From positions 1 through 64,000 of the forward strand of contig DAIDKV010000205.1 in NCBI GenBank assembly GCA_027449865.1: a stretch of DNA of 64,000 nt. Direction: 5' to 3'. Below, in pieces: positions 1 through 29,580 of the stretch. Below the pieces are notes generated by a model. It was not told the DNA's origin, made no database searches, and was given only the letters and a program-made list of their open reading frames with translations. Origin of the DNA: Planctomycetales bacterium. Lineage in GTDB: Bacteria > Planctomycetota > Planctomycetia > Isosphaerales > Isosphaeraceae. A program made the translations under genes and the position numbers. Position 1 is the first letter of the stretch, and each line of letters opens with the position of its first letter.

Positions 1-534
1 TACCGTTAGGTCTTTCGCCAGCTTGTCACACTCGCCTCGGATGAAGCCGCCTCGCGAGGCGGCCTGAGCGATACGCGTGGAGGGGTCGCGGACGTGGAAG
101 GCGAGCTTTCGGGCGTGCTGGGCGTCGGCGGCGGCGCGGGCCGCGGCGTCGGCCATTCTCCGGGCGGCCCTGGCGGCTCGATCATCCGCGCGGGCGCGGT
201 CGCCGCTCGCGGCGTCGAGGGCCTTCTCGGCCTCGGCGATCTTCGCTCGATCCGGTTCGGGGGCTGGAGGGGGCTTTGGCTCCTCAACCTTTTTGACCGG
301 GTCGGCCTCGGTATCGGTCTTGGGGGCGGCAACCGGTTCGGCCGGGACTCCGTGCGCCAGTTTTGGGCCCGGGGGCGCGGTGTCGCGCTCGCCGTGCTGG
401 GGAGCGAACTGGACGTACGCCGTGACAGCGACGATCGCCACCGCGACGCTCGCCAGCTCCAGGCAGGCGCGCCGACGGAAGCCGGGCCTGGGTGGCCGCG
501 GCATCGTCCTGGAATCGCCCGTTGGGTTCGTCAT
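1..534 (-). CDS. Membrane-anchored Ala/Arg-rich helical protein (3' end cut off)
   Basis: The frame runs 178 codons from an ATG at 534 and is still open at the window edge, so the C-terminus is missing. The start overlaps the stop of the upstream gene by four bases (ATGA), which indicates translational coupling. About 23 basic and proline-rich residues (with RPPRPGFRRR) precede one hydrophobic helix at about 24-41 (LELASVAVAIVAVTAYV). A Pro/Glu/Lys-rich linker (EEPKPPPAPEPD) follows, then an Ala/Arg/Asp-rich stretch that looks alpha-helical or coiled-coil. The layout is that of a type II single-pass inner-membrane protein with an extracytoplasmic helical domain. I recognise no family. The same helix-then-coiled-coil arrangement occurs in its upstream neighbour, so the two may work together (inference). 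Confidence 0.7.
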   Translation of the reverse strand, partial: MTNPTGDSRTMPRPPRPGFRRRACLELASVAVAIVAVTAYVQFAPQHGERDTAPPGPKLAHGVPAEPVAAPKTDTEADPVKKVEEPKPPPAPEPDRAKIAEAEKALDAASGDRARADDRAARAARRMADAAARAAADAQHARKLAFHVRDPSTRIAQAASRGGFIRGECDKLAKDLTV

Positions 535-3380
535 CGGTGGATCCTCTCGTCGAGCAGGTAGCCGGTCTGCGGGCCAGCGACCTGTACCGACATCGGCCAG
601 TCCAGATTGGTGAACGTGAGTTGTCTCCTGGCCTCCCAGAAAGTCGGTGAACCGCCCGCCTCGACCAGGAACTTTACCCTCGGCTTCGGTCGAATGAGCG
701 GGTCGACCTGTGCCCGACGTCGGACCATCGCCTTCAGCTCACGCTCAAGCAACGGACCGGCCGACTCGGTTTTAATGGCCCCGGCGCGGAGCGATTGCGA
801 GGTGATCCGGAATCCGCCGGGATGCAGCAGAAGGTCATTTCGCCGGCAGACCACCACGATGTCGAACGGGACATCAATGGCGTTCGGCTTGCGATGAACA
901 TCAATCGGCGGAGCGGCCAGGTCCTTCAACTCGTCCGGCTCTGAGTTCGGATCCGGCCGCGTGTCCAGGCTCGGCAGCGACATCCCGGACGGCATCGAGC
1001 TTGAAGACGACCCACCACCCGAGGCGCTACTCGACGAGGAGCTTCGGGACGAAGACGAGCCCGAGTTGTTCCCTGTCGAGCCGCCGCTCAGCGACGATGG
1101 CGAGCCCGTCGCCGAGGTGTCGGCCAGGTTGACCGGATCGCCGCCGGTCCCCCCGGTCGAGGGCATTCCGGTTGACGGCAGGTGCGGCGGTGCGATCCCA
1201 GCGTTCGCGAGCGCCTGCAAGAGCGGAGGCGGAAGTCCAGGATTCGATGCCGGTGCTCCCGCGGCCGTCCCCGATCCCGTCGGTGGCACACCTTCAAACA
1301 TTGTCCCCGAGGCCGACGAGTTCGATGCCGACGCCAGTCCGCCCGAACCGATGGCTGCGCTCGATGATGCTGTCGCATCCGAGGCGCCGGTGCCACCCCC
1401 GATGCCGTTCTGCTGCTGCGCAACATCGGAGGTTCCGCCACCTCCAGCACCGTCCTGTCCAGGTGCTGCGCCGGTGGGTGCCACTCCAGGGGGCAAGGAA
1501 CCATCGCCTGCCGTCGATGTTAGACCCTGTCCGCCGCGGGTCCCGGTCATCCCTTGCATGGACTCTCCGGCGAGAGAGCGAAATGGCTGGGCGATGTCGG
1601 CATTCGTCCCGGTCCCAGGTCCGGCCCCGGCCCCGGTCTCGTTGATGGCGGTCGCTGGCGACGATCGCTTCCAGGCACGGCCGGAACCGACCGCGCCAGG
1701 GCTACCCGGCGCGGGACGCTGACCACTCATCGACGGGCCGAAACCAACCGGACCGGACTGGACCGGCTCGAGCGGAGGCAGTTGGTCGCCGCTCCCCCCG
1801 CCGAGGCCCGAGCCAACGTCACCGATCGCACCCCTCGCCCTGCCGGGCGCTGAGAGATCGCCCCCCCCAGAGTGCCCGGCCCTCGCCAGCAATCGTTCGG
1901 AAGGACTTCCGGCGGAATCATTCCCCATCTCCGCCCCAGTTCCTCCGCCTGGAAATCCGCCCGGTAAAGCACCGCTGTTTCCCGATTCTCCACCGCCTTC
2001 CGGTCCTCCTCTGCTCCCTGGCGCTCGACCCCGCATCGAACCGGAGAATCCGCCGGAGGTTCCTGGGCCGACCCCTCGACGGGATAATTCACCGCCTGAA
2101 CCCGATGCACCTGGCCATGTGAACTCCTCGGGCCCCTCGCCGGCCGCGTTGCTGGGTTTGCTTCCGGTAGCACTGAGAGCTACCTCGGGTGGCTGGGGCC
2201 CAAGGCCGGGAGGAATCTCACCGCCGCCAATCCCACGATCGAGACCTTCGCCCTGGGCCAGAGCCGCCGATCGACCGGGCGAGCCCTCGCGTCCACCTGA
2301 CTCGCCAGAGGGCGGCCATGTGCCGCGCTGGGCCGATTCCCTGGGCCGGATTCGATCACTACCCGGCCAGATTGGCGGAGGTTCGTCGACGTTTCGACCT
2401 GGCGAATTCCCGGCGCTAGGCCAGTGTGCCGGCGGTTTCGACTCGGCGATCTCCAGCGGAACCGTCCCGTCCCAGGTCCGGACATCGTCAAGGTTTGGGA
2501 TGTCCACCAACAGGTTCTGTTCGATCAATTCGTAGCCAAAAGCAATCCCGAGCGGCTCCAGCCGTCCTCTCGCCTGGTAATAGGCGCGAATCCCATCAGG
2601 GCGGATCAGGAAAACGAGATAGGGAACCGCGGGGGCGCCATCTGGGGTCTCGGACTGCTGGATGTGGAGTAACTCTCGGGCGATCGCAAGGATGATCGGG
2701 CTCGCCTTCGGATGGATCAGCGGCGAGAGATCGACGAGCGAAAAGGTCTGTCCGTTGGGCTGAAGCTTCACCGTGTTTCCCGAACACTCCAGTACGATCG
2801 GCCGTTGCCAGGTTCCGTTCGGGCCCTTGTAGGGGAGAACGGCGTATCCCGATCGATGGGCGTCCTTCTCGAGGGCCGCCTTGAGGGCATCTCGCTCTCG
2901 GGCCAGGACATCGCGCTCGGAGTCGAGACTGGCGACTTCCTGTTCAAGCTTTTCGGCTTTCCTGTTGATCTCGGCGATCTGCTGCTGAACGAGCATCTCA
3001 CGACGCTTCCAGCCCTCCGACTCCTTGACCGAGGTTCGGGCCGCCGTTTCCATATCGGCGGCCTTGCGATCGGCCTCCTGAGCGGCGGCGGTCTCCCGGT
3101 CGATGGCCTTCTGAATTCGAGCCAGAATCGGCCCGGTGGGGTCTTCCGGGGAATTCGGTGAAGGCGGTGGCGGATCCGGTCGCCGGACGATCACCGCAGG
3201 CGCGGGTTTCGGCTCCAGGCCGATGCTCGGGCCGATTGGATCGGCCCGCTTCTCGGTCTTCGTGAGCGATCGGGAGCGATGATGGATCGCCAGGGCGAGA
3301 TAAAACGTCGCTCCCAGGCTGATCAGGATCAGGGCCAGGACCATGCGCTCGGTCCAGACCGCGCCCTTGCGGTGCGTCAT
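531..3380 (-). CDS. Single-pass membrane protein with coiled coil and long Gly/Ser/Pro-rich linker
   Basis: 949 residues from an ATG at 3380, preceded by a GAGAGGA ribosome binding site; an upstream in-frame start at 3464 would add 28 residues that look non-coding. A hydrophobic helix (about 13-33, MVLALILISLGATFYLALAI) is followed by a Pro-rich spacer and a coiled coil at about 80-170 rich in Glu, Lys, Ala and Arg. A small globular part (about 175-310) follows. Then about 500 residues of low complexity are dominated by Gly, Ser and Pro, including a serine-run near the end. A compact C-terminal domain (about 835-949) ends in LDERIHR. No known family is recognised. It lies 225 bp downstream of the giant protein gene and overlaps the next gene, so the three probably form one unit. 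A role as an envelope scaffold is inference. Confidence 0.75.
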   Translation of the reverse strand: MTHRKGAVWTERMVLALILISLGATFYLALAIHHRSRSLTKTEKRADPIGPSIGLEPKPAPAVIVRRPDPPPPSPNSPEDPTGPILARIQKAIDRETAAAQEADRKAADMETAARTSVKESEGWKRREMLVQQQIAEINRKAEKLEQEVASLDSERDVLARERDALKAALEKDAHRSGYAVLPYKGPNGTWQRPIVLECSGNTVKLQPNGQTFSLVDLSPLIHPKASPIILAIARELLHIQQSETPDGAPAVPYLVFLIRPDGIRAYYQARGRLEPLGIAFGYELIEQNLLVDIPNLDDVRTWDGTVPLEIAESKPPAHWPSAGNSPGRNVDEPPPIWPGSDRIRPRESAQRGTWPPSGESGGREGSPGRSAALAQGEGLDRGIGGGEIPPGLGPQPPEVALSATGSKPSNAAGEGPEEFTWPGASGSGGELSRRGVGPGTSGGFSGSMRGRAPGSRGGPEGGGESGNSGALPGGFPGGGTGAEMGNDSAGSPSERLLARAGHSGGGDLSAPGRARGAIGDVGSGLGGGSGDQLPPLEPVQSGPVGFGPSMSGQRPAPGSPGAVGSGRAWKRSSPATAINETGAGAGPGTGTNADIAQPFRSLAGESMQGMTGTRGGQGLTSTAGDGSLPPGVAPTGAAPGQDGAGGGGTSDVAQQQNGIGGGTGASDATASSSAAIGSGGLASASNSSASGTMFEGVPPTGSGTAAGAPASNPGLPPPLLQALANAGIAPPHLPSTGMPSTGGTGGDPVNLADTSATGSPSSLSGGSTGNNSGSSSSRSSSSSSASGGGSSSSSMPSGMSLPSLDTRPDPNSEPDELKDLAAPPIDVHRKPNAIDVPFDIVVVCRRNDLLLHPGGFRITSQSLRAGAIKTESAGPLLERELKAMVRRRAQVDPLIRPKPRVKFLVEAGGSPTFWEARRQLTFTNLDWPMSVQVAGPQTGYLLDERIHR

Positions 3381-3605
3381 CGGTCCCGATCCTCTCGTCC
3401 TCGGGTCGCGCGGGGGCCAGTCTGCCCGGCCGGCATCCTGATCCGGCCGTTGACCGCGCCACACCCGAAATCGGCAAACCGGGACGACATCCTATAACAA
3501 GACGCCGCCCACGGCGATGCAGATTCCGGGACGATTTCCTGGAGATCATCGGCCGATCCCGCTCACGACTTGAGGCTCCCTTGAGCTTTTTCTCAAACGG
3601 CACCG

Positions 3606-6600
3606 TCAAGGGCGGAAAATCGCGGCCCCAACGGCCAGGATAACACCTGCGCCCAGCGCGAGAATCCCGGCAACCACCCACGAGGCGGTGAGGATGGCCG
3701 ACAGGGCCACCACCGCGATTTTCGGCGATGGATGACCTCCGAGCCAGGCTCCCGCCAGAGTCAGAAGAAGGGCGACGCCGTAAAGTAGGTTATTCGCGGA
3801 AAGGAGATCGAGGCCCTTCCGGGTCTCGATCGAGAGAGCGGCTGGCTGGGGATCGTTCGGCGCGGGAAGCGAGCCGACGAAGGCGTACGGCTGGCCGAGA
3901 GCGCGGATGCGACTCGACGCGACCGGCTCGGGAAGCCCGCCGGCCGGTCGGTGGGACGAGTCGGACGCCAGGCCTAGGTAGTCGAGGGCGGCGTCGAGCT
4001 CGTCACCAAGTCCAGCGTTACGCACGGCCGCCGACACGGCCTGGTTCGCGACAGCGATGGAATCCGCGCGACTCAAACCGGGTGGGGGTGGGGGTTCGGG
4101 TTTTCGGCCGGTCCCACGATCAACGGCGCGCAGGGTTAGCTCCTGGTCAATCAGCAACGCGATGATTCCATCACGATCCCGGGCCGAACCGCGGTCGAGG
4201 AAGGCCAAAGACTCGGAAATCGAGCGGCCTAGCCATTCGGCCCGCCTCGTGTCGTATTGCAGGGCGGTCATGGCCTGGAGAGCAGGACCTTTCGAGCGAA
4301 CGACGAGGCGTTTTGGGGCCGCGATCCGAACGAACGCGGGGGTCGCCTCGACGCCGACGCTCGGCATCAAAAGGGACCTGCTGCCGGATGCGTTTGGAGG
4401 ATTTGGGGGGGACTGCCAGACGACGCAAACTCGTCCCGCCCGGCGGGGGTCGATAGGGATCGACCACGACCACGGACCAGCCCGCAACGGGACGACCGGG
4501 TCGGGCTCGAGAGAGGCCCAGAGGATCGAGGCGCCGGCTGGCAGGGCGACAGTCAGGAGCCGGCCGCCGCCAGGACGTATTTCATAGAGCCCGCGTCCGA
4601 TCGCCGATCCATCGGTGAGTACGGTCACTGCGAAAGCGGCCAATTCGGCTCGCGCCTCCCCGTCTGGATCGATCGGCTCAGCGTTCGCGCGGGGCCACTG
4701 AATCCGGAGTGCCCAGGGCTTTTTGACCCAGTACGCTCCACCAGGCGTCCCGCCGACTGGCTCGAATTCCCGGCCCCGGAATCGCCCCGTTCGCGCGATT
4801 GCCTGAAGACCGGTAGCCTCCTCGGTCAGCCCCGATTGGCCGGTCGCGTTGACGATCTCGAGGTAAGTATCGACCGAGCCGTGGCCCAGCGGGGCGACGT
4901 CGGGATAATTCCATTCGCGTGCAGAACCGATCGGCATCGAGGCTCGGAGGACCAGCCGGTGTGGCCCCCAGAATGAGGATCCCGATGTCGCGATCGACCA
5001 GAAGGCCGACGGCCCGATCACGTGCGGCAAGCCCGGGTTCTCCTCGCCCGGTACGGAGAGGCGCGCCTGAGCCGCCCACGACGCCGGAATCTTGAGGTTA
5101 ATCCGGTCGAGCCCCCCGCCGAGAACGTCATATCGGATTACGGCGACCCAGCGGGCCTGGTTGGTATCGACGGTCAATCGGCTCTCGACGACGACCGAGA
5201 CCTGGGGCGGCCGAGGGTCCCATGAGAGCTCTCCCAGGTGTTCGGCGTCCTCGACGAAGTACGAGAGCCGGGGTCTGGAGACGACCTCGGTCCGCGCGAG
5301 AGCCGTGGATGGGACCGATGGCAGGAGAGGCGAAGGCGCGAGGCCCGATCCGCCCCGGATCTCCGCGTTGGTCGGACCGAAGACCACCAGCGTCGCGGGG
5401 CCTACTTCCGCGCCTGGCCAGTCGATCCAGGGAGTCCGAACGGCAGGTCGACGAGGGGGAACGGCGAGCGGATCCTCATCGGTGGCAATCCAGCCGAGGA
5501 GATGGAGCGCCCTTCGCGACCGGGCTCCGCGACGGTGCCAGGTCAGGTTGATCTTTCGTTCTCCGGTGACGATCCAGTCGATCAGTCCGTCTCCCTGAAT
5601 CTGGGTAACATGCAGGCCGGGCGGCAGAACAGCCTCGAGCACAGGCGGTAATTCGGTCGCCTCAATCTCGGCATCCGCCGCGACGATCAACCGCCCCGCC
5701 TCAATCCGAACCTGTACGGCCGGCCGAACTGCGATCCGAGGTCGAGCCGGGCCAGTCTCCAGCAAGATCTCGCGGGAAGGGCCGATACGTTCGGTCCCGC
5801 AGAAGGTAAGCGGCTCGTCGGGGAGTGGCCCCCACGCCTTGACAAAAGCCTCATCGTCGATCGGCACCGTGTCTCGATCGGGCGTGAGCCGGCCGGTCCA
5901 GTCGCCCGGCCTTCGGACACCCAGCACTCCAGAGAGTCGCTCGCCGCCCACGGGGTGTATTTTTGGAAAAGACCGGGCTGACTCATGCCCTGGAGGCTCT
6001 CCGTCGTCAATATCCAGACTGGCGGCTGGCTTCCAGTATTCAACGACGATCGTTGCGGAGGGCGGCAGTGGGGGATCGAAGCTGACGACCCATTCGTCTT
6101 TTCCCGGTTCCAGCTCGCAGAGAACCCGAGAGACGCCGGCGACCCTCGCCGATCGAAGGATGACGCCTGGATCATGCGCGAGCCGAACCGAGGTGATATC
6201 GTCAGCCCGGTGGTAAGTCAGCCGGGCGCGGACACGGTCACCAGCCGGGGTGACGTCCCAGAGCATCAGCGCGCCAACCGCGCCAGGCTCGATCTCGGGC
6301 CGGACGGGCCTCGCGGGAGTCCATCGAACGATCAGCCGGTTGCAGGGACCTAGCCGGCCGTCGAGCGTTCCATTGGCGGTGGTACCCATCCGACCCCGTG
6401 TGACGGCAACTCCCTGGCCGATCGCGTCAGTGGGCGGGGCAACGACGAGGCGGGCGGTCGGGGTCGCGTTGATCGGCAGGCTGAGAACCTCGGCACCCGA
6501 TTCATCCAGCCGGGCCGCAGCCCATCGTCGCAGGCTGAGCAGGTAATTCCCCGGGCCGGGCAGGAGGATCCGAGCGTTCTCGCCGCCAGGCTCCACGGCG

Positions 6601-9600
6601 ATCGGCACGGTCTCGCCTCCGATCATCGCGGTCATCTCGCGGGCCGAGGCAACTGGGACCAGCCAGGCAAAAGGTCCTGGGCCGCCACGAGCCGCCAGTT
6701 CGATCTCGGTCTCCACAAGAACGTCGCCAGCTTCTTTCCGCGTGACTCGGTGCCCCGATGCGATAGCAACGACTTCGGTCTGCGCCTCTGCCACGGGCGA
6801 ACGGTGGGTCAGCCGCTGATAATCATCGAGACGGAGGACGACCCGGTCAGGTGCCTTCACGGGGTCGTAAGCCCCCTCGTAGGGGAAGATCGCGAGAATC
6901 GGCGGATCGTCGCGCGCCGATGCCGGTCGAGGAGCAAGGGCCGCGACCGCCAGCAAGGCGACCACGGAAGCTCCGGCCGCCGCCCGGATCATCGAGCTTT
7001 CCGCCCGGTTCGGAGCCGGAACGGCCACCGAGGACCGCCGACATCGTCTCGCAATCGTGACGATCAGGACGGTGAACGACCCGACCAGGGCTCCAGCCGT
7101 GATGGAGCTGAATCGCGAGGGAGTCGTCGGCTCAATCACCAGGGCGGCCCCGACGACCAGCGCCGGCGCCAGCAGGCCGCCCGATCTTGACCTGCGAGAC
7201 CAGGCCATCCCGGTGATCGCGACCAGCCCGGCCACCATCCAGCCGATCACTCTTCGCTGGCGAAGGTCGACGATCCGGACCGATGATCCGATCGCGGGCC
7301 ACCCAGGCGATGAGAACCGACCAGGGCAACGTCCCTCGGTAGACCAGAGGGCGGTCGAGTCCGTCTCCGAAGATGCGGAAACCCTCGGCGAGACCTCGCC
7401 TCGCCATCGTTCCACCGACTGAAACCGATCGGTCTGATCGGCGCCCCAGGCGACCGCCTCCGCAATTGAGCGAGCCCACGCCGATCGAGTCTCAAATCGT
7501 GGCCGCTCGGCCTTGGTGGTGATGAGAAGAATACCGTCGAACCGAATCGCCGCCAGGCCATGCGCGGCCAGCAGCGCCTCTGCCGAATCGCGATTCTCGG
7601 GCGGTAGGCGGCCCGGCAAGCATGGTGATCTCGGTCCGAGCCCGGCTGACCCCAGCGCCACCCGATCAAGAAGTATCGGCCAGGGCCCGGCGTCCCACCG
7701 GGCAAACCACTCGCTAAAGCTGAGCTCGTCGGCGGGCGGGCGACCGAGGCGGCCGTCGAGCAGCGCAAGACCATCCAGTGGCCCCGGAGTTCCTCGGCCA
7801 AGGGGAAGCGACCAGTCCCTCGGCCGAATTCCGAGTATCCCGGCAGGCCATGGTCCCAGGTCATCCGACTCGATCGCAGCCAGACCACCGACGGGATCGA
7901 CCAGCCTCCACCCGGACGGGACGGAGATCTCCCAGTCGAACGAAAGGCAGGGGCGGTCGACCTTCGGCGGATTGGGCCGGAGGATCGAGCCGTCTCCATC
8001 GGGTCCCGTCTCCATCACGTAGTCGAGGACGTACAGATTGGGTCGCGCTGCTCCGCCCCCTGCCGACGGAACGGGAAGGCCGAGCCGGCTACCCGATCGG
8101 ATCGGCAGGATGTCGCCCCCATCCCGCTGCACCCGGACGAGTTTCGAGTCCGGGGGCATCTCGATCGAGAGCTCGTCCGATCGGCCCGGCTGGACCAGCA
8201 TGCGCAGTCGATTAAGAGTCCGGCCGGGCCCGTCCCAGGTGGTCGTCATCCAGGCCTCACGGACGATTCCCGGCATCTGCCCCGGCTCCATCGGCTCGGC
8301 GGTCAACTTGAGTTGTGCGCCCGGCTCATCGTACGTGAAGGTACGGACAATCGGCCCGGCGTCAGGACCCGTGGGGAATGTCTCTCTCGTGGTTTCCGTG
8401 TGAAGCCGCCCCATTCTTTCCATTTCAAAGCGTGTCCGCATGGCGGCCGGAACCTCAACCCGGATCGTTGATGGCTCGATCGAGCCGGGCGCAATCCGGA
8501 GCAAGGGGATTGATCCCGGTGAGGACCACGCCAGGGTCGCCTGAAACGCTATCGACCGCCGCCCGTGGGGGAGCAAATCGACGGGGATCTCTCGCGCCGA
8601 GATATCGCGGCCAAAACCCAATCGGACACGATCGATCTCGCCGACCCGGCGGGGCCGCAGCACGGCGCTGTCTTCTCCGCGGAATTGCCAGGCGGCGAGC
8701 GGATCGCCGGACCCTTCGAGGCCGATTGGTATCGCGTCGAGCGGTGCTCCGCCGGCCTCGACGAACATCGTCCCGTCGATCGAGAGGCCGCGCCCATCGG
8801 GAGAGAGCCGGGCTCGAGCACGGATTGAGGCCCGGGCCGTGCGGTCGACTCGCTCGCGATCGATCCGAGCTTCGGGGTCGCCATCGGCCGCGGCGGTCCA
8901 TCTCCACCCCAGCGCGGGGAAGAGTCCAGGTGAGGGGGCGGGCGTTGCCAGTCCAGGAACATCGTCCGGTTCAATCCACGCCAGGCCACGCGCCCGGACG
9001 GGCCGGATCGTCGACGCGTCATCCGTCCAGGCGATCCAGGCTTCGTCGACGACCGATGTCCCAACCGGTTGCACCCTCGGCAGTTCCAGCGGTCCGCGGG
9101 ACAACGATCCGCCGGCGGTCGCCCCAATCGTCAGTGTCCATTTGCCCGAGGCCAGCACCGAGGCCGGAAGCATCGCTCGGAGCCGGATTCCTCCCGAAGG
9201 GGATGGCGACGAGTGCCAGGTCAGCGGGTCGTCCAGGCCCTGAATCCGGACCTGGTCCGGCGACCATCCCGGCGAGAGATCCACGACCAGTTCGGAGACC
9301 GACCCTCGTCGAAGCGCCCAGTCGAGCCGGGCCTCGAACCGTGCCGGCGTCCCACTCAGGTCGAGCTGGCCCCGGACGGTGCAGGCAAGACCTGGTCGGG
9401 GCTGGACCAGCACCAGTTCGGCGACTGACTTCGGCGCCCTTGACTCGAACGCGAGCCGGTCGTCGGGCCCGTCGTCCCCCCTTGCTGAGGGGACCAGTCG
9501 CCCGGCACGCTCGCGATACCCGCGCACCGCGTGCGACTCGTCGAGGAGAACCGTCGTTCTCCCTCCGGTCCAGATCGCGTCGACCGGATGAAACGCCGGA

Positions 9601-10661
9601 ATTCGCCAGGTTCCTTCCGTCGGAACGGTCGCGTGCGCCATCAGGCGGAGAGTCGTGGCGCGGACGCCCTCGGCGATGGAAATGACCACTCGAGTTGACT
9701 CGCCCGGTCGATCGATTCGATAGCCGCGGAGCGCGTTGCCGCGAACGTCGATTAGCTCCAGCCCCGGGTCGAGTTCAGCCTCCAGACGGGCCGCGTGCCG
9801 TGGATCCAGTTCCAGCCGGCATTCGGAGGTCCAGTTTGCCATCGAGGCCGATCGGCCGGGCCTCTGTCGGATGTCCACCTCAGTCGAGGCGCTCAACCAG
9901 GCACCCAAGTTGGCGCCCGACTTTCCGCGATCGGTGGCCTCGCTCAACTCGACGTCGAACCGTCCTCCCTCACCGTCAAGTTCCCAGAGACTCCAGCCCG
10001 GATCACCGGTCGGGATCGGCCCACGACGGACCCCACGCTGACTTGACGCCGACCACCCCTCGGGAAGCTCTAACTCCAGTACGGTCGTGTCGACCGCGGG
10101 CAGGCCGAGCGCGAATCCTCGACCTCGCGAGAGCGGCCTTGGTTGCTGCTCCCACTCAATCGGAATGGCCCGACCTCCCGGCGTCCCGGTGATCCGTAGG
10201 ACCGTGGTCCCGTTTTCGCTCGCCCCCACCGCCGGTGCCGCCCCGGCTCCTATCCCAACGCGAATCGCTGGTGTCCAGGGTTCCATCGGGAAGTTGAAAG
10301 GACCCGAGGGACCACCACCGACGACTAGCTCTGACCGCCCACGCAGTAGACCGCCCTCCAGGCGGGCTCGGTGGCGGGCCACGATCAGCCGGGCCGGCTC
10401 GACCGCTCTACGTCCCGCCGAATCCCTCGCCGCCCTCGAGACCGCCGCCTCGAATTGCTCCGGCGAAAGAATCCGAAGCTCCGTCCCGGGAGGAAAGTAC
10501 CTCGTCAGGTCCTTCGCTGGCACCCGAACCCGGACAACCTCCGGACCCGCGGCACCGCACATCGGCGGCGGCGTAAGAGCCGTCAGAAGAGCCAGCAACG
10601 ATACCATCCGCCCTCGACTCGGGCGATTGGCAGACTCGGAATGTGTCCGGCTTTCGCTCAC
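3606..10661 (-). CDS. Giant exported multi-domain membrane protein made of two fused halves
   Basis: 2351 residues from a GTG at 10661; an ATG at 10607 is an alternative that loses the basic n-region before the hydrophobic stretch MVSLLALLTALTPPPMCGAA. The first half (about 40-1130) is beta-rich with repeated short hydrophobic strands and ends in a three-helix cassette (about 1134-1208). Directly after this lies a second signal-peptide-like segment (about 1224-1249, ending PASA-RDD), then another beta-rich half and C-terminal membrane helices (about 2288-2351, with NLLYGVALLLTLAG). Most of the protein should lie outside the cytoplasm. The first half resembles the product of the gene at 21682-25119 in layout and in the helix cassette. 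I know no function for this planctomycete-type family. It is the first gene of a three-gene minus-strand cluster. Confidence 0.8.
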   Translation of the reverse strand: MSESRTHSESANRPSRGRMVSLLALLTALTPPPMCGAAGPEVVRVRVPAKDLTRYFPPGTELRILSPEQFEAAVSRAARDSAGRRAVEPARLIVARHRARLEGGLLRGRSELVVGGGPSGPFNFPMEPWTPAIRVGIGAGAAPAVGASENGTTVLRITGTPGGRAIPIEWEQQPRPLSRGRGFALGLPAVDTTVLELELPEGWSASSQRGVRRGPIPTGDPGWSLWELDGEGGRFDVELSEATDRGKSGANLGAWLSASTEVDIRQRPGRSASMANWTSECRLELDPRHAARLEAELDPGLELIDVRGNALRGYRIDRPGESTRVVISIAEGVRATTLRLMAHATVPTEGTWRIPAFHPVDAIWTGGRTTVLLDESHAVRGYRERAGRLVPSARGDDGPDDRLAFESRAPKSVAELVLVQPRPGLACTVRGQLDLSGTPARFEARLDWALRRGSVSELVVDLSPGWSPDQVRIQGLDDPLTWHSSPSPSGGIRLRAMLPASVLASGKWTLTIGATAGGSLSRGPLELPRVQPVGTSVVDEAWIAWTDDASTIRPVRARGLAWIEPDDVPGLATPAPSPGLFPALGWRWTAAADGDPEARIDRERVDRTARASIRARARLSPDGRGLSIDGTMFVEAGGAPLDAIPIGLEGSGDPLAAWQFRGEDSAVLRPRRVGEIDRVRLGFGRDISAREIPVDLLPHGRRSIAFQATLAWSSPGSIPLLRIAPGSIEPSTIRVEVPAAMRTRFEMERMGRLHTETTRETFPTGPDAGPIVRTFTYDEPGAQLKLTAEPMEPGQMPGIVREAWMTTTWDGPGRTLNRLRMLVQPGRSDELSIEMPPDSKLVRVQRDGGDILPIRSGSRLGLPVPSAGGGAARPNLYVLDYVMETGPDGDGSILRPNPPKVDRPCLSFDWEISVPSGWRLVDPVGGLAAIESDDLGPWPAGILGIRPRDWSLPLGRGTPGPLDGLALLDGRLGRPPADELSFSEWFARWDAGPWPILLDRVALGSAGLGPRSPCLPGRLPPENRDSAEALLAAHGLAAIRFDGILLITTKAERPRFETRSAWARSIAEAVAWGADQTDRFQSVERWRGEVSPRVSASSETDSTALWSTEGRCPGRFSSPGWPAIGSSVRIVDLRQRRVIGWMVAGLVAITGMAWSRRSRSGGLLAPALVVGAALVIEPTTPSRFSSITAGALVGSFTVLIVTIARRCRRSSVAVPAPNRAESSMIRAAAGASVVALLAVAALAPRPASARDDPPILAIFPYEGAYDPVKAPDRVVLRLDDYQRLTHRSPVAEAQTEVVAIASGHRVTRKEAGDVLVETEIELAARGGPGPFAWLVPVASAREMTAMIGGETVPIAVEPGGENARILLPGPGNYLLSLRRWAAARLDESGAEVLSLPINATPTARLVVAPPTDAIGQGVAVTRGRMGTTANGTLDGRLGPCNRLIVRWTPARPVRPEIEPGAVGALMLWDVTPAGDRVRARLTYHRADDITSVRLAHDPGVILRSARVAGVSRVLCELEPGKDEWVVSFDPPLPPSATIVVEYWKPAASLDIDDGEPPGHESARSFPKIHPVGGERLSGVLGVRRPGDWTGRLTPDRDTVPIDDEAFVKAWGPLPDEPLTFCGTERIGPSREILLETGPARPRIAVRPAVQVRIEAGRLIVAADAEIEATELPPVLEAVLPPGLHVTQIQGDGLIDWIVTGERKINLTWHRRGARSRRALHLLGWIATDEDPLAVPPRRPAVRTPWIDWPGAEVGPATLVVFGPTNAEIRGGSGLAPSPLLPSVPSTALARTEVVSRPRLSYFVEDAEHLGELSWDPRPPQVSVVVESRLTVDTNQARWVAVIRYDVLGGGLDRINLKIPASWAAQARLSVPGEENPGLPHVIGPSAFWSIATSGSSFWGPHRLVLRASMPIGSAREWNYPDVAPLGHGSVDTYLEIVNATGQSGLTEEATGLQAIARTGRFRGREFEPVGGTPGGAYWVKKPWALRIQWPRANAEPIDPDGEARAELAAFAVTVLTDGSAIGRGLYEIRPGGGRLLTVALPAGASILWASLEPDPVVPLRAGPWSWSIPIDPRRAGRVCVVWQSPPNPPNASGSRSLLMPSVGVEATPAFVRIAAPKRLVVRSKGPALQAMTALQYDTRRAEWLGRSISESLAFLDRGSARDRDGIIALLIDQELTLRAVDRGTGRKPEPPPPPGLSRADSIAVANQAVSAAVRNAGLGDELDAALDYLGLASDSSHRPAGGLPEPVASSRIRALGQPYAFVGSLPAPNDPQPAALSIETRKGLDLLSANNLLYGVALLLTLAGAWLGGHPSPKIAVVALSAILTASWVVAGILALGAGVILAVGAAIFRP
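6915..6992 (-). other. Internal signal-peptide-like segment with possible internal start
   Basis: Inside the giant gene an in-frame ATG at 6992 follows GGCGGAAAG, a Shine-Dalgarno-like sequence with suitable spacing. It would give MIRAAAGASVVALLAVAALA then PRPASA-RDD: a charged start, a hydrophobic core and an AxA-type cleavage site. The segment could be translated on its own, or be the fossil signal peptide of a once separate gene. Confidence 0.55.
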
Positions 10662-10847
10662 GTCCGTCTCGCCACGATCCCGGCCCTCGCAAGGTGCCTT
10701 CGACCACCATGAGCCTCGGTCTCGACCCTTCCACAAGAATATCACGTCCGCTCGTCCTTTTCCGAGATGGGGCCCACCAGGCCCCTTTCCTGACAAGGCT
10801 TCTCCGTGCCGGTCGCATGCCTCTTGAATCATGAATCAGGAATTCCC

Positions 10848-10876: not shown

Positions 10877-11005
10877 CCAGTAGATGAGATTGGCCGATGA
10901 TTGTGCGGTCGATCGGATGCCGGACGCCCGCGTTAACTCGACCGTCGTTGTTGATTGCCGAGCGCAAGGGATTCCTGGTCGATCGAGAGGGAGGCTTCGG
11001 GTCCA

Positions 11006-12091
11006 ATGACAAGGCGACGCACTGGTTTTACATTGATCGAGCTCCTGGTCGTGATCGCGATTATCGCGGTCCTGATTGCACTGCTCCTCCCCGCGGTCCA
11101 GGCGGCCCGTGAGGCAGCCCGGCGCATCCAGTGTACGAATAACCTCAAGCAGTTCGGTCTGGGCATCGCCAACTACGAGTCGTCGAATGGCTCCATCCCC
11201 ATCGGTGTGGTCTACGGAATCGGTGTTCCTCCCTGTAAAAGCCCGGGATTCGGCCGCGGTTGCCAGAACACACCCTGGTTCGTGCTGATGCTCCCTTACA
11301 TTGAGCAAGCCACCCTCTACAACGCTTTCAATGCCGCGATCGGTATTGAAGGTCCACCCGTCTTGCAGGGCTTTCTGATCAATAGCTCGGTCATCACGAC
11401 GAAAATGGCCACATATCAGTGCCCCAGTGACAACACCAATTCACTCTCGCTCGCCTCGCTCTCCGCGGCGGCTGGCGGAGCCATTCCTGCCCTTCCCTGG
11501 TCGCTCCCGAAGGGAAATTACGGCGCGAACTGGGGTAATACGGATTATGGACAGATTCCCTTCGGTTCCTACGGCTCCCTTTATCGACAATCTCCCTTCG
11601 GCGTGGCCTCCAGCGGGATGGGACCTCAACTGGTGCGATTCGCCTCGGTGACCGATGGCCTGAGTAATACCCACTTCGTCTCAGAATTGCTCCAGGGGGC
11701 GAGCGACGACATGAGGGGCACCATCTGGCTTCAGAATCCGGGAGCCGGCTCTTACATGACGCGTTTCACACCCAACGGCTTCCTCGACTATTTACACGGT
11801 CCGCTGGGGAACTACGACGTCCTGGCCTCCTTCGCATCGACCGGCCCTGGTACCAGTCCACCGAGCCCCGGCTCGCTTTGCGATAGCCAGCCTGCCCAGT
11901 TGCTTGGGTGTAATCAAACGACCAGCGAAGGGTCCGAGTACGTGGCCGCAAGGAGTCGGCACCCCGGCGGCGTCAACGCTCTCTTCGGCGATGGCTCGGT
12001 TCACTTCATCAAGAACTCCATCAGTTCGCCCATCTGGATCGCACTCGGTACGATTAACGTGGGCGAGGTCATTAGCTCCGATTCCTATTAA
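11006..12091 (+). CDS. DUF1559 protein with prepilin-type N-terminal leader
   Basis: 361 residues. The start at 11006 places the type IV prepilin leader at the N-terminus: a short basic stretch (MTRRRTG) and then [20 protein letters not shown], with expected cleavage between G and F and methylation of F by a prepilin peptidase. A GGAGG lies 12-13 bases upstream. The hydrophobic helix is followed by the usual family sequence QAAREAARR and CTNNLKQFG. The C-terminus carries the family H-x9-DG signature ([12 protein letters not shown] followed by SVHFIKNSI). DUF1559 proteins occur in very large numbers in planctomycetes and are pseudopilin-like exported proteins of unknown role. In-frame codons upstream to 10955 are not part of the gene, because the leader must be N-terminal. 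Confidence 0.93.
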
Positions 12092-25119: not shown

Positions 25120-25296
25120 TCGGCCCTGGCATTCCATTCGGTGTTGCCCAGGGTTACGATGGGCCGATGCGTCAAAGAACGGCTGGCGTGGGACGCGACC
25201 GATCCGGACCTCGGCGCGGAATTTTGGGCGGGGGTGGTGGAGCAGTCGCAAGGCTGCATGAATCTGGATTGGGTCGATGTGCGAGGCATCCGGTCG

Positions 25297-28200
25297 ATGG
25301 GCTCAAGCACGGAGACGACAACATCGTGTTCGCCGGCCGAGGAATTCGCCCGACTCTGGCGTCCGGGTGGGCCGTTACCGGATGTATTCGAATATCTGGC
25401 GGCCAGGCCGGGGCTGACCGTTGCCGAGCGGCTGATTGTCCTTCAGGTTGACCAGGCTCAGCGTTGGCGGATCGGCCAGCCGCTTCCACTTCGTGTCTAC
25501 CTCGCGACCTCGCCGGAAATCGCCGAGTGCGGCGAGATGATCCGGGTGCTGGTCGACGGCGAGCGCGAGCATCGCCGACACTCGGCCCAGCGGCTTAACC
25601 AGACAGCACCCCGGACCGGAACCCTGGTCGACCCCTCGCAGTGGCCCACCGATACGATCGCGCCACCTGTCCCGCGCGATCTCGATTCCGAGGGAAATGA
25701 TCCGGCCGTAGACGAGGAGTTGCCGACCACGGCAATCCCAGAGCCCGCCGCTCTCCTGATCCTGACCCGAACGCCGGACGATGGTCCGCCGACTGGACCA
25801 AGGAAGGATCTGGGCTACTCGCTCGACGAGGCCCACCACCTTCGGGCTGAGGCTGAGGCCCTCCGCGCCATGCTCGATACCGTCCGGTTCACGCTTGTCC
25901 GCCGCATCGGGGCCGGCGGCATGGGAGTTGTTTACGAGGCATACGACCGCAAACGCGGCGAACTCGTTGCACTCAAAACCATGCGACGCGCCGACCCCAG
26001 TACCCTGGCCCGGTTCAAGCAGGAATTTCGGGCACTCGCCGACATCGCCCACTTCAACCTCGTCAACCTTTACGAAATGATCGCGGTCGAGGACCGATGG
26101 GTCTTCACGATGGAGTTGGTCGAGGGAACGGACTTCGTCAGCGATACGAGAATCCTCTCGCTCGGTCCACCGACTGAGTCCGACGGGTCGTCGTCTCCGC
26201 CCCCGTTCAACGAACAGAGGCTACGCGAGACTCTCCGACAGCTTGCAGAAGGAATCGTGGCGTTGCACGCCTCAGGGAAACTCCACCGGGACATCAAACC
26301 AACGAATGTCCTGGTGACGCCCGAGGGACGGGTCGTTCTGCTCGACTTTGGCCTGACCGCCGACATGGAGAGCACGGGACAGTTCCGTACCGCGGATCGC
26401 CAGATCGTCGGCACGGTGGCGCACATGTCGCCCGAACAGGCGGCCGGTCATCCGATCACAACGGCGAGCGACTGGTACAGTGTCGGCGTGATGCTCTACG
26501 AGGCGATGACCGGCCGCCTTCCGTTCGTCGGGCCCCCGCACGAGGTGATTCTCCTGAAACGCACCAGCGAGCCACTCCGGGCTTCGGCCATCGTGCCCGG
26601 ACTCCCGGAGGATCTTGTCGACCTCTGCACCCGGCTCCTCGATCGCGACCCCGACCGTCGCCCTACCGGCCGTGAGGTCATCGCCGCGCTCACCGGCTCC
26701 GAGCCTGAGCCGGTGGACCCCATTGGGCCAGGGCGAACCCTCCCCCTGATCGGCAGAGACCGGCACCTTCAAGTACTGGACGCAGCCTTCACCGGCCTGG
26801 TCCGGCGCAGGACACAATCCATCTTCGTCTTCGGCCGGACCGGAACCGGCAAGACGACGCTGATCCGTTCCTTCCTCGAGGGCCTGGCTCGTGGCGACGA
26901 CGCCATCGTTCTCTCAGGGCGATGCTACGAACGCGAGTCAGTTCCATACAAGGCGCTGGATAGCCTGATTGATGCCCTGGCGCGGTACCTCAAGGGACTG
27001 CCAGCCCGATCGCTTGCGTCGCTCATGCCCCCCGATGTCGCTTACCTCGCCCGCCTCTTCCCAGTCCTTGACGGTGTTCCGATCATCGCCGCCGCCCGCG
27101 CTGAGGCGCTCGATCTGCCCGACCCGCAGGAGGCCCGACGCCGTGCCATCAAGGCCCTCCGCGTCCTGCTCCGCCGGATGGGCGAGAAGGCTCCGCTCGT
27201 CCTCGCCATCGATGATCTGCAGTGGGGCGACTCGGAAAGTGTGCTCCTTCTGGCCGACCTGCTCGGCTCTCCCCGGGCGCCGGTCCTCCTGCTTCTGGGT
27301 TGCTTCCGCGTTGAAGACCGAGAGGATGGCCCTCTCCTCGTCCAGCTTCGGCAAGCCCTCGAAGGGCGACCATCTCCACCCGAGCACCGCGAACTGGCCG
27401 TTGAAGCGCTCACACAGTCTGAGGCCCGAGAGTTGACCCTGGCCCTCCTGGGTCGCGACGACCCCGTGGCACGAGCCCAGGCGCATTTGGTCGCGCGCGA
27501 ATCCGGCGGCAATCCCCTTTTCGTCGACCAACTTGTCCGGCATCTCCGCGGTTTCGGTCCGGTCGAGAAGTGGGAGGCGATCGGCCGTCTGGACCTTGAT
27601 GAGGTTCTAAGGGACCGTATCCGCAAACTCCCCGACGAGGCCCAGCGCCTGCTGGAGACGGTCGCTCTCGCCGGTCGGCCGATTGACCAGTCTCTGGCCT
27701 TCCGCGCTGCCGGGCTGGGAGCGGGGGGGCGGGCCGCGGTCGCCGCACTCCGGACCGCTCGCCTGATCCGCCAGGCTGGACTGATCCCGGACGAAATCGA
27801 GATCTATCACGACCGAATCCGCGTCTCGATCGTCGAGCAATGGCCGCCCGATCAGCTCCGACAGCACCACCATCGACTGGCGGAGGTCCTCGCGACTTCC
27901 GGGCCGACGGACCCAGAGGTTCTCGCCGGCCATTTCCTCAATGCCGGCGACCTAAGACGAGCCCGCGCGTACTACGAGCGAGGTGCCGACCAGGCAGCCT
28001 CCGCACTGGCGTTCGAACACGCCGCGCGGCTCTACCGTAAGGCGATCGAGCTGGCTCCCGCCGACTCCACGATCACTCCCTCACTGCGGAAGCGGCTTGG
28101 TGATGCCCTGTCAAACGCCGGACGAGGATGCGAGGCGGCCCGCGTCTATCTCGAAGCGGCCTCGGCCAGCGAGCCGGCCGCGACGCTCGAACTGAAACGG

Positions 28201-29580
28201 CTCGCCTCGGCCCAGCTCCTCATCAGCGGTCACATCGACGAGGGCCTTGCCCTGCTCCGCGACCTTCTGATCCCAATGGGGATCGGCATGCCCGAGACTT
28301 CACGCTCCGCTCTGGCATCCCTGCTCTGGCACCGCGCGATTCTTCGGGCGCGTGGCCTCGAATTCATCCCGAAGCCCGCCGATCTGGTGCCTCCAATCGA
28401 CCTGAAACGGATCGACCTCTACTGGTCGGCCGTCGCCGGACTGAGCATGGTCGAGCCAATCCGTGGGGCCGACTTCCAGGCACGTGGCCTGCTCCTGGCC
28501 CTTCGCGTCGGAGAGCCGTTCCGGATCGTGAGAGCGGTCGCGATGGAAGCGGCACACGAGGCCGTTGCCGGCCCCTCGGCCATTGTTCGGGTGGAGGCGA
28601 TGCTCGCCCGCGCCGCCGCCCTGGCCGATCCGTTGGACTCGCCCCAGGCCCATGGAATGGTCGACCTTGTCCGCGGCCTGAGCTCGATCCTTTTCGGGCG
28701 GTGGCAGATCGGAGTCGAGTCCCTCGCCCGTGCAGAGGAGCTCTTCAGGGACCGATGCACTGGCGTGGCCTGGGAGCGCGCTACCGGCCATAATTTCGCA
28801 CTCTGGGGACTGTACAAGCTGGGCGAGATCACCGATCTCCGCCGCCGATGGATCTCGCTCTCCCGAGAGGCCAGGGAACGCGGCGATCTCTACGCCACTC
28901 GCTACCTCAACGCCTTCTACCAGACCATCCTCGCCCTAGCCGCCGATGATCGCCCGACGAACGAGACCGAACTGGAAGCCATGCTGCGCGAGACCCGGGG
29001 CCGGACACTGAGTCTCCAGCAGACGCCCGCCTTCGACGCCCTGATGCATATCGACCTCTACCGGGGCGACGAGGCTCGTGCCTGGACCCGACTCCGCTCG
29101 TACTGGCCCGAGTTCGCCCGCTCGCTCCTGTTCCGCGTCCAGATGATCCGCGTTCAGATGTTCGAGTTGCGTGCCAGAACGGCCGTCGCCCTGGCCGACC
29201 GATCGTCCCAGCCCGGCCGCTTGCTCTCCCAGGCGCTCCGCGACGCAAGAGCCCTGGAACGCGAGGGCGTCGACTGGGCTCGGGCGCACGCCCACCACAT
29301 TCGCGCCGCTGTCGCCGCTTGCCAAAAAAACGCCCCCCGCTCCATCGCCGAATTGACCCTCGCCATCGAGCTCTACGACCGCGCCGAGATGCCCCTTCTG
29401 GCTGAAACCCTCCGCTATCGGCTCGCCGGTATCGACCCCAGCGATGCCGCCGCTCCCCTCCGAGAGCAAATCGCCAGGCGAATAACCGCGCGGGGCATCG
29501 TCAACGTCGATCGATGGGCCACAATGTGCGCCCCCGGATTTGGACGGGTCAGTAGCGAGACATCCGATACCAGCGGCTGA
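25297..29580 (+). CDS. Ser/Thr protein kinase fused to AAA ATPase and TPR-like regulatory region
   Basis: About 1427 residues if started at ATG 25297 (GAGG ten bases upstream); starts at 25258 or 25141 are possible. A helical pre-kinase region contains LIVLQVDQAQRWRIGQPLPL, common in planctomycete kinases. The Hanks kinase domain (about 200-470) has the glycine loop IGAGGMGVVYEA, Lys227 in VALK, catalytic HRDIKPTN (330-337), DFG (350-352) and MSPEQAAGH. After it comes an AAA_16-type ATPase with LIGRDRHLQVLDAAF, Walker A FGRTGTGKTTLI (about 513-520) and Walker B VLAIDDLQWGD (about 638-643). The rest is alpha-helical repeat sequence with many Ala and Leu. Kinase plus predicted ATPase is the layout of PknK-type regulators that sense and integrate signals, usually without a DNA-binding domain here. 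No membrane helix is seen, so it is likely cytoplasmic. Confidence 0.92.
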   Translation: MGSSTETTTSCSPAEEFARLWRPGGPLPDVFEYLAARPGLTVAERLIVLQVDQAQRWRIGQPLPLRVYLATSPEIAECGEMIRVLVDGEREHRRHSAQRLNQTAPRTGTLVDPSQWPTDTIAPPVPRDLDSEGNDPAVDEELPTTAIPEPAALLILTRTPDDGPPTGPRKDLGYSLDEAHHLRAEAEALRAMLDTVRFTLVRRIGAGGMGVVYEAYDRKRGELVALKTMRRADPSTLARFKQEFRALADIAHFNLVNLYEMIAVEDRWVFTMELVEGTDFVSDTRILSLGPPTESDGSSSPPPFNEQRLRETLRQLAEGIVALHASGKLHRDIKPTNVLVTPEGRVVLLDFGLTADMESTGQFRTADRQIVGTVAHMSPEQAAGHPITTASDWYSVGVMLYEAMTGRLPFVGPPHEVILLKRTSEPLRASAIVPGLPEDLVDLCTRLLDRDPDRRPTGREVIAALTGSEPEPVDPIGPGRTLPLIGRDRHLQVLDAAFTGLVRRRTQSIFVFGRTGTGKTTLIRSFLEGLARGDDAIVLSGRCYERESVPYKALDSLIDALARYLKGLPARSLASLMPPDVAYLARLFPVLDGVPIIAAARAEALDLPDPQEARRRAIKALRVLLRRMGEKAPLVLAIDDLQWGDSESVLLLADLLGSPRAPVLLLLGCFRVEDREDGPLLVQLRQALEGRPSPPEHRELAVEALTQSEARELTLALLGRDDPVARAQAHLVARESGGNPLFVDQLVRHLRGFGPVEKWEAIGRLDLDEVLRDRIRKLPDEAQRLLETVALAGRPIDQSLAFRAAGLGAGGRAAVAALRTARLIRQAGLIPDEIEIYHDRIRVSIVEQWPPDQLRQHHHRLAEVLATSGPTDPEVLAGHFLNAGDLRRARAYYERGADQAASALAFEHAARLYRKAIELAPADSTITPSLRKRLGDALSNAGRGCEAARVYLEAASASEPAATLELKRLASAQLLISGHIDEGLALLRDLLIPMGIGMPETSRSALASLLWHRAILRARGLEFIPKPADLVPPIDLKRIDLYWSAVAGLSMVEPIRGADFQARGLLLALRVGEPFRIVRAVAMEAAHEAVAGPSAIVRVEAMLARAAALADPLDSPQAHGMVDLVRGLSSILFGRWQIGVESLARAEELFRDRCTGVAWERATGHNFALWGLYKLGEITDLRRRWISLSREARERGDLYATRYLNAFYQTILALAADDRPTNETELEAMLRETRGRTLSLQQTPAFDALMHIDLYRGDEARAWTRLRSYWPEFARSLLFRVQMIRVQMFELRARTAVALADRSSQPGRLLSQALRDARALEREGVDWARAHAHHIRAAVAACQKNAPRSIAELTLAIELYDRAEMPLLAETLRYRLAGIDPSDAAAPLREQIARRITARGIVNVDRWATMCAPGFGRVSSETSDTSG

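Follow-up and report, generated by a model that had tools for sequence, protein, structure and literature searches.

Duplicated exported modules fused long ago in a planctomycete giant gene, with an internal signal peptide that is probably cleaved

What is a signal peptide doing in the middle of a very long membrane protein, and how did it come to be there? The question is raised by a gene of a planctomycete of the family Isosphaeraceae, carried by a stretch of 64,000 nucleotides that was analysed as a whole and is named here the window. Its frame runs on the minus strand from a GTG at 10661, or from an alternative ATG at 10832 that would extend the product to 2408 residues, down to a stop codon at 3606-3608. 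A first-pass annotation had seen in the middle of this frame three membrane helices followed by a segment shaped as a signal peptide, and both sequence and hydropathy confirm this order: peaks at 7200-7250, 7134-7184 and 7053-7103 are succeeded by a basic loop, then by a signal-peptide-like segment, MIRAAAGASVVALLAVAALAPRPASA|RDD, with its h-region at 6933-6983 and a site for signal peptidase I predicted at ASA|RDD, between 6915 and 6914. In what follows residues 1-1249 of the product are termed module 2 and residues 1250-2351 module 3; features are collected in Table 1.

The reading that we favour is that of an ancient fusion of tandem duplicates, in which the internal signal peptide would form a fourth membrane crossing and would be cut by signal peptidase I, so that two products would come from one chain. 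To this combined statement we assign a probability of about 0.62 only, because cleavage is inferred, as the best reading of a pattern of conservation. The part of it that concerns history, namely that exported modules were duplicated and long ago fused, is in our view close to certain.

Table 1. Features of the giant gene and of its stand-alone paralogue in the window
Feature	Positions	Strand	Basis
Giant gene, 2351 aa	3606..10661	-	Open frame; orthologous single frame in Isosphaeraceae spanning the junction
Module 2 N-terminal signal peptide	10548..10661	-	Sequence and hydropathy; end approximate, residue 38
Module 2 closing helices, three transmembrane	7053..7250	-	Hydropathy; same place in orthologues
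Internal signal peptide, residues 1224-1249	6915..6992	-	Tripartite structure in 31/31 orthologues; cleavage-motif statistics
In-frame ATG, proposed as internal start (unsupported)	6990..6992	-	Window and L088 only; weak SD
Module 3: beta-sandwich domains with a helical hairpin and three helices at the C-terminus	3609..6914	-	AlphaFold2 model; module 2 homology
Module 3 C-terminal transmembrane helices, three	3615..3788	-	Hydropathy and model helices
Module 1, stand-alone paralogue, 1153 aa	21658..25119	+	Profile A4, E 2e-300; architecture; module tree

Homologous modules in a shared frame

The relationship between the two halves of the protein is visible to profiles only: BLASTP gave no significant match between them, and a profile-profile alignment of module 2 with module 3 extends over 808 aligned columns, with an E value of 2e-22. 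Both halves are also homologous to a third, stand-alone gene, module 1, which in most relatives lies immediately upstream of the giant gene on the same strand and which is displaced in the window. Module 1 has a signal peptide, a beta domain and three helices near its C-terminus, and each of the modules is built on this plan of a signal peptide, beta domains and about three helices. In a tree of the module cores the sequences sort by position (1, 2 or 3), with 13 changes as compared with 33.9 when labels are shuffled; because the cores group in this way, it is likely that the duplications are older than the phylum as sampled, although the deep branches of the tree are long and the support for some of them is weak.

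The neighbourhood displays some variation of its own. Where most relatives have module 1, co-directional with the giant gene, the window has a DUF1559-like prepilin-type gene (10955-12091, plus strand), divergent from the giant gene. The displaced module 1 is directly followed by a gene (25141-29580, plus strand) in which a protein kinase is joined to an ATPase-like region; relatives have no homologue of it near their modules. The product of the gene downstream of the giant gene (531-3464, minus strand) combines a helix at the N-terminus with a coiled stretch and a long part rich in Gly/Ser/Pro; the loci searched yielded this gene in congeners only. One family outside the class seems to have the locus in tandem duplicate (L202:1382-16721 and L156, with module 1, fused 2-3 and module 1 again). 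No plasmid copy was found.

How widespread is the fused frame? In a search of 45 Isosphaeraceae genomes with each half separately, the N and C halves shared one long frame, of about 2170-2500 residues or a longer stop-to-stop span, in every genome with a contig that crosses the junction. Paludisphaera soli and Aquisphaera insulae are two of the named relatives. With profile A1, made from the N half, and profile A2, made from the C half, the search was carried to the class and beyond, and the frame was again uninterrupted in 13 genomes examined in the other families of this class and in 33 genomes sampled beyond it; near-complete genomes on few contigs are among the carriers. The frame survey and the module profiles together show a single reading frame to encode both exported units. 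A shorter version, of about 1520-1750 residues, with the middle helices kept and a short second domain, is present in another family of the class (L116-L122).

This distribution bears directly on the explanation first offered for the arrangement, two exported-protein genes fused by loss of a stop codon. The two units are well founded, the halves being homologous, module 1 a separate gene with its signal peptide, and a split version existing in L154, and the second unit has indeed kept its signal peptide; it is the recent loss of a stop that is contradicted. A join restricted to the window genome, whether through such a loss or through an assembly error, would have in its favour L159 (genome G408, outside the class), where the halves lie in the same frame with a single TAG between them, at L159:10778-10780 in the membrane region, so that a single base can separate both states; this TAG may mark a real split, a sequencing error or a site of readthrough. 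Yet the same layout is met across the family, the class and most of the sampled genomes of the phylum, near-complete ones included, and a recent event or an artefact is therefore excluded, leaving that explanation a negligible likelihood.

The check that had been proposed, whether the halves exist elsewhere as separate adjacent genes, was run, and the answer is that they do, rarely. There is one clean case, L154 (genome G456), in which modules 1, 2 and 3 are three consecutive separate genes: the second ends after its helices, and a stop and a short gap are followed, in another frame, by a third gene that opens with MNRVIVRVCVLAACLAVVLRSAVRA|EESSP, a signal peptide of its own at the N-terminus, and that groups with module 3 in the module tree. 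Separate single-module genes are also found in L160, L164 and L190 (genomes G409, G492 and G522), where module correspondence and order are uncertain, and these were not counted as clean splits; L156 (G415), considered as a three-gene split, was dropped, the module tree and the membrane pattern identifying it as a fused copy truncated by the contig, accompanied by a second copy. In an rpoB tree, in which G539 and G618 are wrong and deep forks stay open, the split genomes fall in at least three places among the fused ones. Because of this scatter we favour a fused ancestral state with occasional fission, a direction of change that is not proven.

The internal segment, between helix and signal peptide

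A hydrophobic segment preceded by a basic n-region is present at the same place in all 31 of the Isosphaeraceae orthologues scored at the junction (31/31), the stretch before the hydrophobic core being net-positive in each, from +1 to +6; in a 32nd orthologue, L087, the chain crosses twice there rather than four times. The mean net charge of the loops is +3.3 between helices 1 and 2, +0.1 between helices 2 and 3, and +6.0 between helix 3 and the segment, values that agree with the positive-inside rule for a chain predicted to cross four times, with loops that are in turn cytoplasmic, periplasmic and cytoplasmic. With the loops so placed, module 3 would reach the outside only if the internal segment itself crosses the membrane. 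The number of crossings in the middle region is kept even: four in most proteins, two in L087 and eight in L168 and L200 (L168:4313-13066 and L200:6058-14814, each with eight hydrophobic segments in the middle membrane region).

Such a segment had been expected either to be cut or to act as another helix, an alternative that proves well posed, since even crossings are needed and a cleavage motif is conserved. In the relatives the n, h and c regions and the -3/-1 signal-peptidase motif are retained at the junction while the sequence of the segment diverges. The motif was scored on the 53 fused proteins in which the middle segments number exactly four, and whose sequences are related and hence not independent; the matrix used is a simple one, hand-set on general knowledge and distinct from SignalP. 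The median score after the fourth segment is 5.9, against 3.3 after each of helices 1-3 (n=53); the excess over the three helices gives p values of 2.5e-8, 2.5e-6 and 1.1e-8, and that over shuffles of the segment's own residues a p value of 9e-6 (n=53 in each case). It repeats in the 29 proteins from outside the Isosphaeraceae taken alone (paired p 1e-5 to 6e-5), and many of these diverged orthologues have textbook endings, such as SAGAARA|AD, SPAQA|QG, GTPAHA|QG and STAMA|QE. A plain count of AxA is less telling. It is moderately enriched at the Isosphaeraceae junctions (20/31, as compared with 13.7 by shuffling, p 0.0065), and it is a weak test because the true N-terminal signal peptides of the same family are not singled out by it either (11/30, with 11.9 expected).

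We may weigh here the main competing view, which accepts the ancient fusion and takes the internal segment to be, at present, nothing other than a fourth transmembrane helix, in an uncleaved polytopic chain displaying two periplasmic domains. The even number of crossings is what this view would predict, the uncharged run of the segment (median 19) is as long as in a membrane helix, and the cleavage motif is poor in several orthologues. On the -3/-1 matrix, about 45% of the 53 proteins score below 5. The uncleaved chain accounts less well for a motif kept at the fourth segment and not at helices 1-3, or for endings as canonical as ARA|AD, AQA|QG, AHA|QG and AMA|QE in many diverged orthologues. 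We consider this view a serious contender, nonetheless doubtful, and the cleaved signal peptide the better reading.

The first-pass annotation had also proposed that the second half might still be made on its own, from an in-frame ATG at 6992 (residue 1224). The bases before it, GGGCGGAAAGCTCG, form a purine-rich stretch, a candidate ribosome-binding site, that is common to the window and to the congener L088, and synonymous changes are few nearby, at 0.08-0.18 per codon as against 0.29 overall. Minima as low are found elsewhere in the giant gene, the anti-SD pairing (-5.8 kcal/mol) is equalled or bettered at 15% of gene positions, the ATG itself is present only in the window genome and that one congener, and at least nine orthologues have no ATG, GTG or TTG in the region. 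Among the orthologues, then, no conserved in-frame start with a ribosome-binding site was found, the proposed site is weak, and additional synthesis of module 3 by internal initiation is improbable.

Module homology, the fused frame, the conserved signal-peptide features and the split version are all read from the sequences themselves, and a scenario may be built upon them. The ancestral unit would have had a cleavable signal peptide, beta-sandwich domains located outside the inner membrane and amounting to some 1000 residues, and at its C-terminus about three helices. Tandem duplication would then have produced a three-module locus, with modules 2 and 3 in one frame and module 1 as a separate gene. 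In the fused chain, the module 2 domain would face the periplasm and its three helices would return the chain to the cytoplasmic side, where the basic loop comes next; the internal signal peptide, making the fourth crossing, would take module 3 outside again. After this peptide, at ASA|RDD, signal peptidase I probably cuts, in which case the module-2 product would end in its helices and a signal-peptide stub, the module-3 product would be membrane-anchored and made in an amount equal to that of its partner, and both would likely belong to a shared complex.

Fold, neighbours and precedents

Planctomycete envelope biology is unusual and poorly understood, and family searches gave little guidance here. 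No Pfam or NCBIfam model matches the giant protein, and its relatives gave sub-threshold or unrelated hits; for cytochrome families in particular, these two collections yielded nothing for the giant protein at E<=1 and only sub-threshold hits for relatives. A sequence search of the PDB returned weak 14-3-3 matches that fall on the helical hairpin, and nothing usable. An AlphaFold2 model of module 3, built from nine sequences (mean pLDDT 64, pTM 0.36), predicts beta sandwiches arranged in a string, together with a helical hairpin and, at the C-terminus, three helices. With Foldseek, this string of domains resembles those of Ribophorin I / OST1, integrin alpha and the beta domains of M1-aminopeptidase, with TM-scores of 0.15 or less on the query and identity of about 10%; module 3 is without an enzyme domain, and the likeness is one of fold only.

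A homologous gene accompanies the modules at 15 loci, mainly outside the class, mostly directly upstream and on the same strand; VWA and YfbK_C domains were recognized in the three that were examined, and zf-HC2 in two of those. Such a VWA / YfbK_C gene is located directly upstream of the modules, outside the class, at L191:13325-16632, and also in L162, L172, L187, L193, L195 and L198; in L191 it is itself preceded by an ECF sigma factor gene. It is possible that the VWA / YfbK_C gene and the modules make up a regulated operon, and a plausible guess that the modules form an envelope-associated complex. Tentatively, we may be looking at an undescribed, phylum-wide planctomycete envelope system of three homologous giant modules, two of them delivered in a fixed ratio as a polyprotein cut by signal peptidase; upstream, several lineages outside the class have the gene for the von Willebrand-type (VWA) protein and one of those examined has the ECF sigma factor gene as well.

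Internal cleavable signal peptides have, to our knowledge, rarely been reported in bacteria. FbcH of Bradyrhizobium, the precursor of cytochrome b and cytochrome c1, has one, and yields two products from one chain. As in the giant gene, a polytopic protein is fused in-frame to an exported one through an internal signal peptide; the differences are that FbcH and the giant gene belong to unrelated protein families, and that the halves of the giant gene are homologous duplicates whose cleavage is predicted only. The other near precedent is LtaS, the lipoteichoic acid synthase of Staphylococcus aureus, a polytopic protein likewise processed by a signal peptidase, SpsB, which frees the extracellular domain after the membrane region (PMC10865820). 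LtaS has no fused second gene led by a signal peptide, and the enzyme released from it is soluble, in contrast to module 3, which retains C-terminal helices of its own. By size and phylum the gene belongs with the planctomycetal 'giant genes' of more than 5 kb, mostly unannotated, and the portions of those accounts consulted do not describe the module family or its internal signal peptide (PMC5352709, PMC5177795).

The finding gives a name to a large and widespread planctomycete protein family that has neither a Pfam nor an NCBIfam model. The same junction is found in diverged orthologues across the phylum, and the version made of separate genes is a natural control, so that routine processing of a polyprotein by a bacterial signal peptidase becomes directly testable.
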